Source: a virus
DNA length: 43,461 bases
IMG/VR virus record: IMGVR_UViG_3300006920_000080
Coordinates: 1-43,461 of that record
Direction: 5' to 3' (one strand)
The stretch's first letter is position 1; every line of letters starts with the position of its first letter. The notes under the pieces were generated by a model. It did not search any database. It saw nothing but the letters and a program-made list of their open reading frames with translations, and was not told the origin of the DNA. The translations under genes and the position numbers were made by a program. Positions 874 through 16,502 of this stretch are shown here, one piece after another.

Positions 874-925
874 AATGAACTCCTTGGTAATTTTTATTGC
901 TGTCTACTGTGCTAATTAAAGCGTC

Positions 926-1068
926 GAAAGGGAGGTCGTAGTACCTACATCCTTTCCTTTAGGTTAACACCTAATTCTTATTCGCCATGATGCATCTAAT
1001 AAGTTAGCTAAGCCTTTCGATAACTTACGTAAGTTTGCAACCCTACGCACATAACACCATGCGAATAA
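926..1068 (-). other. Highly folded leader between tRNA-Trp and the HD gene
   Basis: Stems seen directly: GAAAGG/CCTTTC (926-931 with 951-956) enclosing AGGT/ACCT (933-936 with 943-946); TTAGGT/ACCTAA with a TAAC loop (959-974); TAAGTT/AACTTA (1000-1005 with 1022-1027); a perfect 14-nt palindrome AACTTACGTAAGTT (1022-1035) that competes with it; and TTATTCGC/GCGAATAA (978-985 with 1061-1068) closing the multiloop. It could be the 3' domain of the large RNA or a control leader for the HD gene. Confidence 0.45.
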
Positions 1069-1077
1069 AAACTAAAT

Positions 1078-1151
1078 TGGCACGCCGAGAAGGAATCGAA
1101 CCTTCGTTAACGGTTTTGGAAACCGCTGTTCTACCATTGAACTACCGACAT
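1078..1151 (-). tRNA. tRNA-Trp (anticodon CCA)
   Basis: Full cloverleaf on the minus strand. The acceptor stem ATGTCGG/TCGGCGT pairs at all seven positions (three G-U). The D stem is GTTC/GAAC, the anticodon stem is GCGGT/ACCGT with loop TTCCAAA (anticodon CCA), and the T stem is GAAGG/CCTTC with loop TTCGATT. The discriminator is G, as usual for tRNA-Trp, and the 3' CCA is encoded (1078-1080). It has no promoter of its own nearby and lies within the transcript from 1783-1810. Confidence 0.93.
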
Positions 1152-1221
1152 ACATATTAAACCTTGTCGCTTCACAGCGTTACAGGCTTTACTTTCACCG
1201 CGCCACATGGAGCGAAGATAT

Positions 1222-1231
1222 ATCACCTCCT
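1222..1231 (-). other. Perfect anti-SD complement without a usable start codon
   Basis: The minus strand reads AGGAGGTGAT, a 10-nt perfect complement to the conserved 3' end of 16S rRNA (ATCACCTCCT). The nearest ATG is 17 nt past the GGAGG core and opens only a 25-codon frame that stops inside the tRNA. It may be a structural part of the RNA, a decoy or chance. Confidence 0.4.
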
Positions 1232-1309
1232 ATTATGAAGATGTAAAGCACATTATAGCCAAGATCAGCAGAATAAATATCACACTTATTAGCAAGGTTA
1301 TTTCGATAT

Positions 1310-1412
1310 GCTTTGAATTGACTGCTTATTGTCGGGATACGAACCGCTTTTAGCTTCGCGGTGCTATGTTATTGGTGCTTATCTCCAATCCCTAAAACAG
1401 TCAAATCAAAAC
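1310..1412 (-). repeat. Structured hairpin unit A
   Basis: On the minus strand, 1398-1412 pairs with 1310-1324 across 15 positions with one G-U and one mismatch. Inside lie GGGAT/ATCCC (1388-1392 with 1334-1338) and ACCGC/GCGGT (1358-1362 with 1343-1347). The outer half of the helix and its flank (GGGTGTTTT before, TTCAAAGCATA after) are shared with unit B. Confidence 0.6.
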
Positions 1413-1567
1413 ACCCTACCGTTTTACAAGAGTAGGAGCTTGCATACTGTAGCCGCATATGAAACGGACGCCCATTTTTAGCGAAGTCACTCTATTAAGC
1501 TGTTTCCTCGGTCAGCCCTACCGTACCACACTACGCAGTGGATGCGATTCCTTGTCGAGAATTCTAT

Positions 1568-1620
1568 GCTTTGAATTGATAGCTTCGACGGGGTTTATTC
1601 CTCCACTATCAATTAAAAAC
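1568..1620 (-). repeat. Structured hairpin unit B
   Basis: On the minus strand, 1606-1620 pairs with 1568-1582 over 15 positions with one G-U and one mismatch, enclosing a 23-nt loop. Compared with unit A, the outer helix is conserved while two inner base pairs change together (C-G to U-A and U-A to A-U). That is compensatory change between two copies inside one sequence and argues for a conserved RNA fold. Confidence 0.6.
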
Positions 1621-1782
1621 ACCCTTCTTTTATGCGCGCACTTGGAGAAGGAAACCAAGATATGAGGGACAAAATTACTAAAAACCCTGCGCTGGACGAT
1701 TTACTTATATTGCCGACAATCATTATGGTGAAAGGAGGTCGCCACTGGTTGTCTGCATCGCATCGCCCTAAGACACAAATCA

Positions 1783-15594: not shown

Positions 15595-16502
15595 CAAAAA
15601 ATCTCCTCTGATTCGTTGTTATCTAGCTCGTAAACTACCCAATTCGGAACACTAATTTCAGCGTCTTCATCTAGGTAATTCGGCCATTCATTTTTCTCTG
15701 AGCACTCTTTATAAATCAAAAGCGCCTCGTTAAACTTCATTTCGCCCATCAAGATCGAACCGGCATCGGCAGTATAAACCTTGCTGCCCCACGGCGCCTT
15801 TTCTTCGATTGCGTTGTACTTAAAAGAAAGATCGCAACCTGTCAGTAGTTTGTAAATGTGCGAGTAATACGCTGCCGAAATGTAGTAGCCATAGCTTCCG
15901 ATAGCTCGCGTAAAGGCTTCTTTGCGTGCGTCTTGGCACTTTTTAGCGTCTAGGCTGATATCAGTCATTCCGGTAATTCGGTCAAACTTGCACTTCATCA
16001 AAACGCCTGTAACTGGGCATTCAATGAAAGCACACAACTCGCTAAAGCCGTCTTGCATGTAGATTGCCATTGCTGTCTTATTGCGCTTTACGCTTCGGTA
16101 CATGCCGCGCAAGTTGTCAACTTCTGACTTGATAAAGACAAACTGTGATCCGTCGCCCGTAGAATTACCGTCCGTATCCTTGGTGCTTTTTTGCGCTACC
16201 AGTTGCTTATAGTCCTTCTGGCGACGATCTGGAATATCTTCTGCAAGCACGTATTGCTCTTTGAAGTATGCAGGCTCAAGCACCGCGGCATGGATTGCGC
16301 TTCCTATTTCCATTGCTCTAGTGCGCTCGAAACTGTCTGAGGCATAATGCGCTGGTGAGCGTAGAATGTTTTTAACGCCCGTTGAACTTAACCCTTCGTA
16401 TGCGTGATAGTCATCGTTTGACATTCCTACCACGAAACAACCAGCGCGCGCCTTTTCGATTGTTAGGTCTGCGTGGTTGATGATTTTTGATTGTGGGATC
16501 AT
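15594..16502 (-). CDS. RecE-like PD-(D/E)XK exonuclease
   Basis: 302 aa. Pattern of the YqaJ/RecE (exonuclease VIII, DUF3799) group: early LSSTGVKNILRSPAHY, then GSAIHAAVLEP, a metal-binding Asp in KCKFDRI and the nuclease core SLDAKKC (D-x-K), with a later Tyr-rich helix (YGYYISAAYYSHIY). It would degrade one strand from dsDNA ends to feed single-strand annealing during replication or recombination. SD AAGGGG; overlaps the upstream gene by ATGA. Confidence 0.85.
   Translation of the reverse strand: MIPQSKIINHADLTIEKARAGCFVVGMSNDDYHAYEGLSSTGVKNILRSPAHYASDSFERTRAMEIGSAIHAAVLEPAYFKEQYVLAEDIPDRRQKDYKQLVAQKSTKDTDGNSTGDGSQFVFIKSEVDNLRGMYRSVKRNKTAMAIYMQDGFSELCAFIECPVTGVLMKCKFDRITGMTDISLDAKKCQDARKEAFTRAIGSYGYYISAAYYSHIYKLLTGCDLSFKYNAIEEKAPWGSKVYTADAGSILMGEMKFNEALLIYKECSEKNEWPNYLDEDAEISVPNWVVYELDNNESEEIF

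Follow-up and report, generated by a model that had tools for sequence, protein, structure and literature searches.

A candidate modular structured RNA with an internal tRNA-Trp in a phage genome and a structured module found in its relatives

Introduction

Large noncoding RNAs have been described in several phages and prophages. In particular, GOLLD, for which ribosome binding has been reported from pull-downs, sometimes holds tRNAs in a variable linker, and ROOL, a large RNA of phages and prophages, is found near tRNA islands and contains pseudoknots (PMC12286853). In the vibriophage ICP1, an abundant RNA of about 800 nt devoid of ORFs maps to where the lysis cluster begins (PMC7567579).

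The locus considered here belongs to a stretch of viral DNA of 43,461 nt, analysed as a whole and referred to as the window. The most economical reading of the locus, as far as sequence comparison goes, is a dedicated noncoding transcription unit that keeps its core and exchanges its tRNAs and structured modules.

A putative noncoding transcription unit with an internal tRNA

An ORF-poor stretch of about 890 nt occupies positions 890-1778 of the minus strand, between a holin gene (1814-2305; Pfam GTA_holin_3TM) and an HD-domain gene (Table 1). The longest sense ORF of the stretch encodes 46 amino acids, and no reading frame is common to it and its two homologues, described below, whose longest ORFs are 42 and 56 amino acids; on these grounds a coding region was rejected. 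The tRNA-Trp is the sole ARAGORN call in the window, where the program found no tmRNA gene.

The promoter preceding the stretch is a member of a class. The motif TNTAGATTAATRTT occurs at seven sites of the window with at most one mismatch, where chance predicts 0.25 sites and not one of 100 shuffled sequences attains seven. The sites, with core TATAGATTAATRTT, lie at 283, 1782, 8983, 16788, 27747, 31659 and 35207. Six of them precede, by about 30-45 nt, an ATG equipped with a ribosome-binding site; unlike these, the copy at 1782-1795 heads a noncoding stretch. At the opposite end, a hairpin followed by a T run similar to that of the window is present 3′ of the RNA in both homologues.

These results agree with the original prediction, which had described about 890 nt without credible genes, containing tRNA-Trp, placed downstream of an early phage promoter and running into an alarmone hydrolase: the promoter is real as a motif class, both tRNA searches recover the tRNA, and the gene reached by the stretch has an HD_4 domain. 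As a separate observation, the AT-rich intergenic region at 2354-2672 holds five of the eight copies of TTTGCTTA in the window, in both orientations, and these are possible operator or origin iterons.

Table 1. Positions of the features discussed; coordinates refer to the window unless a locus (L number) is given.
Feature	Position	Strand	Basis
Promoter TTGCAA-N16-TAATAT; core TATAGATTAATATT at 1782-1795	1782-1810	minus	motif class; kept in both homologues
5′ leader block, 157 nt	1622-1778	minus	86% and 88% identical to the two homologues; compensatory changes
Variable module A, predicted long helix framed by GGGUGUUUU ... CAAAGCAUA	1565-1624	minus	inverted repeat I2, direct repeats D1, D3
Linker between modules A and B, predicted hairpins	1417-1564	minus	fold; not conserved in homologues
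Variable module B, frame as in A, different interior	1307-1416	minus	inverted repeat I1, direct repeats D1, D3; fold
Invariant 22-nt hairpin CAUCUUCAUAAUAGGAGGUGAU	1222-1243	minus	identical in all three phages, surroundings diverge
Conserved block of a hairpin and, after it, a helix with GUGA (GNRA) tetraloop cap	1152-1221	minus	compensatory pairs
tRNA-Trp, anticodon CCA, CCA end encoded	1078-1151	minus	ARAGORN; Rfam tRNA 61.7 bits
3′ helix UUAUUCG.../...CGAAUAA around third variable module	970-1075	minus	z -4.4; helix kept, contents differ
3′ extension, two hairpins, ending at AUUACCAAGG	890-969	minus	window-specific; absent from both homologues
HD-domain (alarmone-hydrolase-like) gene	358-873	minus	Pfam HD_4, E=1.5e-18
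Terminator-like hairpin and T run, end of transcription unit	310-331	minus	predicted from sequence
K copies	L034 1087-1190; L035 1328-1427, 1645-1779; L050 2967-3068; also L053-L064, L066-L073		
Second K-like copies	L057 2762-2879; L064 2845-2963; L072 1749-1866		

Conservation in related phages

A search with the major capsid protein brought up two related IMG/VR contigs, G001 and G002, and the element is present in both. Thus, the search for homologues in phage genomes that had been proposed for this stretch did find related contigs carrying it, with compensatory changes. Promoter, leader, 22-nt hairpin, GUGA-capped helix, tRNA slot and 3′ helix are common to the three phages, and the conserved blocks of the window are 74-92% identical to those of the homologues. 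The DNA of the capsid gene is 83% and 79% identical to that of the window in the two homologues. With the leader at 86-88% identity, the noncoding blocks are roughly as conserved as a structural gene; in these three sequences leader conservation is at the level of the capsid gene and not clearly above it.

Elsewhere, the capsid protein and the 22-nt hairpin retrieved no prophage relatives from the GTDB genomes, and a distant BLASTN search for homologues in named phages and plasmids gave tRNA or marginal matches only. One pattern match (L040) was rejected as a chance occurrence inside a coding sequence.

The surroundings of the element bear on the possibility that it is a regulatory 5′ leader, i.e. 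a riboswitch or attenuator, of the HD-domain hydrolase gene downstream. In the window the RNA does run straight into this gene, which has a ribosome-binding site, and the terminator is found only after the gene. However, both homologues are without the hydrolase 3′ of the RNA, yet RNA and terminator remain. In G002 the element has the same place, beside the holin gene, and a small ORF is found where the window has the hydrolase; in G001 the gene upstream of the RNA is replaced by a different one with the RNA kept, and a hairpin with a T run lies directly 3′ of it. As the gene is not conserved together with the RNA, the leader hypothesis was rejected and we give it hardly any credence; the RNA is independent of it, and the hydrolase, to judge from the three contigs, is an accessory add-on of the window phage, outside the conserved element.

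Structure of the conserved core

The prediction had spoken of many stems, and folding statistics uphold this for some parts of the RNA and not for others. The 3′ helix block folds better than shuffled sequences (z -4.4), and so does the block 1152-1243, with z -2.2 in the window and -4.6 and -3.9 in the homologues. In contrast, the whole RNA of the window folds just slightly better than its shuffles (z -1.72, 2 of 20), and the leader no better (z -0.3). Folding energy alone is weak evidence for the window RNA.

Comparison of the three sequences adds to this. In the RNAalifold consensus, the leader and the hairpin block each contain five pairs with compensatory changes, such as CUUGG/CCAAG replaced by CUCGG/CCGAG and AGGG/CCCU by AAGG/CCUU. 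In a named structure 92% of the cells pair, against 37-49% when the partners are slid. The observed score and pairs are, however, reached by 43-48 of 500 controls with shuffled 3′ letters (score: 43 of 500); the covariation of the core is thin because there are only two core homologues. Taken together, the evidence from the alignment is consistent with the core structure rather than overwhelming.

The leader contains the helices GGGCGAU/AUCGUCC, AGGG/CCCU and CUUGG/CCAAG. We infer a pseudoknot in which the CCUUCU loop of the CUUGG hairpin would pair with a conserved downstream AGAAGG, and a second contact between the hairpin loop ACCUCCU of the window and G002 and an AGGAGGU; both are complementary, without covariation.

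Within the 22-nt hairpin, the segment AGGAGGUGAU (1222-1231) is a perfect complement of the 16S rRNA 3′ tail, and AGGAGGTGAT occurs once in the window against 0.02 expected. Against a contact with the ribosome through this segment, the fold prediction places AGGAGGUGAU in a paired region. A leader peptide behind it was considered and rejected: an ATG lies 17 nt away in two of the phages and is absent in the third.

Exchange of tRNAs and modules

Between the conserved blocks the three phages differ. The tRNA slot holds tRNA-Trp in the window and in G002, and tRNA-Asn with tRNA-Met in G001. The module stretches measure 378, 250 and 205 nt and, at 60-66% identity, have no meaningful alignment. 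In the window two of the modules share the frame GGGUGUUUU/CAAAGCAUA and a third is located inside the 3′ helix. The homologues put other modules in these places: that of module A is taken by a different module in both, and one of the replacing modules has a T-arm-like hairpin, GAGGUUCGAAUCCUC. In both homologues, the 3′ helix encloses a module named K instead of the third module of the window.

Such heterogeneity could be taken for debris without function, left by recombination of tRNA genes and mobile segments, as the middle modules cannot be aligned between relatives and G001 has a T-arm-like hairpin without a full tRNA. Conservation of the blocks at capsid level, compensatory changes, the kept promoter and terminator and the invariant 22-nt hairpin all argue against debris, which we consider highly improbable. 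Rather, the exchanges in the relatives suggest a tRNA transcript with structured modules that would fold separately and be exchangeable. The claim that the stretch may be a new large phage RNA is consequently retained in part: the two homologues and their compensatory changes support a conserved, structured RNA that has an early-class promoter of its own and a tRNA inside, but the relatives suggest modules folding separately.

Further observations concern sequences shared with more distant phages. Exact copies of the G002 hairpin UCACUCCCGUAAGGAGUG are present in 12 IMG/VR contigs (loci L042-L052 and L037), including Shewanella phage 1/40. In several contigs a long helix comes after it and surrounds a variable module, and in several tRNAs or T-arm-like hairpins adjoin it; locus L050 holds both UCACUCCCGUAAGGAGUG and K, and in L047 and L048 the hairpin coincides in part with the 3′ terminus of an ORF (last codons DSLP-stop). 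For the long helix after the CACUCCCGUAAGGAGUG hairpin, statistical support is mixed, being strong in about half of the loci. Shewanella phage 1/40 (L038 1830-3300; KJ018211.1, about 43018-44488) has an ORF-poor stretch of about 1.4 kb, adjoined by two tRNAs and a pseudo-tRNA, which shares the UCACUCCCGUAAGGAGUG hairpin and the short motifs GUCUUAGGG and CAUAAAAG with the window family and is a possible distant relative of it. Salicola phage CGphi29 (NC_020844.1, L041 8240-9046) has an unannotated gap of about 800 nt ahead of the terminase genes; sequences resembling a promoter and a terminator were recognised there by eye, and the gap possibly encodes another large phage RNA.

The K module

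K occupies the 3′ helix of both homologues and, in addition, the 5′ place of G002. A covariance model (R1) finds one copy in G001 and two in G002, at 63-74 bits. K is absent from the window, where the best R1 match, with filters off, is partial and scores 7.8 bits. Its consensus is GUGGUGAAUGCGCAGGCUGAUGCGC-[variable]-GCCGGAGAUCAGCACCGGCCACCAC, with a length of about 80-220 nt. Specifically, the outer helix P1 encloses a first hairpin whose loop reads GGCUGA, then the variable stems, and lastly a hairpin that abuts P1; the loop of this last hairpin, UCAGC, is complementary to GCUGA, which makes K a kissing-loop RNA. By analogy, the order of the parts and the loop-loop contact resemble the tRNA cloverleaf.

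On 15 sequences 98.7% of the cells pair, and changes on both sides are found at 13 of 21 pairs, the kissing pairs included; no shuffle reaches the pairing or the covariation value. On 25 distinct sequences both sides change at 15 of 16 stem pairs, in an alignment fitted to the model. By this covariation, the K of the homologues is a real structured RNA.

BLASTN finds K in at least 229 phage records, including phages of Klebsiella, E. coli and Pseudomonas, Yersinia PY54, P1, D3 and HK620, and in 827 of 5,426 E. coli genomes (about 15%), many of these matches covering only the 5′ third of K. None of the 40 listed E. coli places is annotated, and some of the phage places overlap a hypothetical-protein call. 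Over 478 kb, matches of the K model are confined to phage noncoding regions; there is none in the rnaC/rnaD region of T4. K matches no family of Rfam 15, and a literature search, whose coverage excluded most subscription journals, found no paper describing it. A compact and strongly covarying motif present in the model phages P1, HK620 and D3 and in that many E. coli genomes makes the role of non-tRNA RNAs in the tRNA regions of phages a question that can be addressed in laboratory strains.

K often adjoins tRNAs on the same strand. It lies beside tRNA-Asn/Thr in P1 (69,820-69,915), and its distance is 6-8 nt to the tRNA-Ser of D6 and 13 nt to the tRNA-Phe of phiEt88; in L050 it occupies the place where L051 has tRNA-Ser and tRNA-Arg. 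In HK620 (16,097-16,185) K is located between pR′ and tQ. Two side observations belong here. Shorter second K-like copies of 21-25 bits, with GGCUAA replacing GGCUGA, are found in the P1-like phages P1, D6 and Ro157c2YLVW; and Klebsiella phage P01 (OR387546.1, L055 790-3930) has about 3.1 kb without annotated ORF containing K, an STnc100 match and tRNA-Met.

The position of modules where sister phages have tRNAs, together with the intact tRNA-Trp, would suit a plain phage tRNA operon, in which the stems are leader and spacer guiding RNase P/E processing or guarding the ends, and just the tRNA functions. This explanation is improbable in our view, as the core survives the change of tRNA identity from Trp to Asn and Met, and K is also found without tRNA nearby, a tRNA being present within 1 kb at only 10 of 22 K loci.

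Proposed function and comparison with known RNAs

On the comparisons made here, the element of the window is probably (about 0.55) a dedicated noncoding, modular structured RNA from which tRNA-Trp would be cut. Transcription would start near 1776 from the early-type promoter of the phage, as one unit. The RNA would then fold into the conserved core, made of leader, invariant 22-nt hairpin, GNRA-capped helix and 3′ helix, and this core would bear the tRNA slot and helix-framed sites whose structured modules are swapped between related phages. Following excision of tRNA-Trp, presumably by host enzymes, the remaining core and modules would persist as a stable structured RNA, which might act on the translation apparatus during infection by contacting the 30S subunit via AGGAGGUGAU and/or by a tRNA-like shape. 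What suggests this last step is the tRNA company and the invariant segment that perfectly complements the 16S tail (expected count 0.02), and we propose it tentatively, at clearly less than even odds.

A bolder idea, argued by analogy and unlikely as it stands, is that the RNA of the window and those of its sisters serve as a chassis presenting exchangeable tRNAs and tRNA-shaped modules. K would be a widespread undescribed family of such modules, its junction plan and loop-loop contact being like those of a tRNA elbow, and might target ribosomes or proteins that handle tRNAs, for instance by acting as a decoy where phage defences attack tRNAs.

Among the known RNAs, GOLLD is like the window RNA a large noncoding phage RNA near tRNAs, the window having its tRNA-Trp inside, and ROOL shares size, occurrence in phages and prophages and tRNA neighbourhood. 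The element could thus be an ornate RNA of their kind, that is, a single large RNA that self-assembles as a multimer or cage and has its tRNA placed in a variable linker; its size, internal tRNA, conserved and variable regions and many hairpins fit the descriptions (PMC12286853). Nevertheless, cmscan of the window and the homologues against Rfam 15 (gathering, E<=1) found no GOLLD, ROOL or other non-tRNA family, the sole extra match in the window being antisense to the tRNA and far below its gathering score. Dedicated searches gave no match at E<=10 for GOLLD (RF02032) and none at E<=10 for ROOL (RF03087), the latter result being weak alone as the control also gave no match. Membership in either class is consequently rejected, and the earlier statement that no class could be assigned from sequence was right. 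Moreover, GOLLD has a universally conserved 3′ region and a less conserved 5′ one, whereas the window conserves blocks at both ends and in the centre, namely 5′ leader, central hairpin block and 3′ helix. A self-assembling RNA of this kind is therefore a rather poor candidate, and the preferred modular RNA, judged by these searches, is a new class among the known large tRNA-associated phage RNAs.

The RNA of ICP1, likened to that of the window by description, is similar in length and ORF-less; it lies in a lysis cluster, as the window RNA adjoins a holin gene, but ICP1 has no tRNAs. The STnc100/PasD prophage sRNAs (RF02076) are comparable as structured prophage RNAs, have no match in the window or the homologues, and in one copy share an ORF-free region, that of Klebsiella phage P01, with K and a tRNA. 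Finally, the stable RNAs C and D of T4 (rnaC and rnaD) are non-tRNA stable RNAs in a phage tRNA cluster; at about 120-140 nt each they are far from the size of the window RNA, and their comparison with the core is by description. T4 rnaC (L065 1409-1547, minus strand) ends in the T-arm-like hairpin GGGUUCGAAUCCC, a tRNA-like character comparable to modules of the window family. The element may be seen as a large-RNA counterpart of RNAs C and D, which would work like GOLLD and ROOL without belonging to them; its architecture would be related to that of all these RNAs and built from exchangeable parts.
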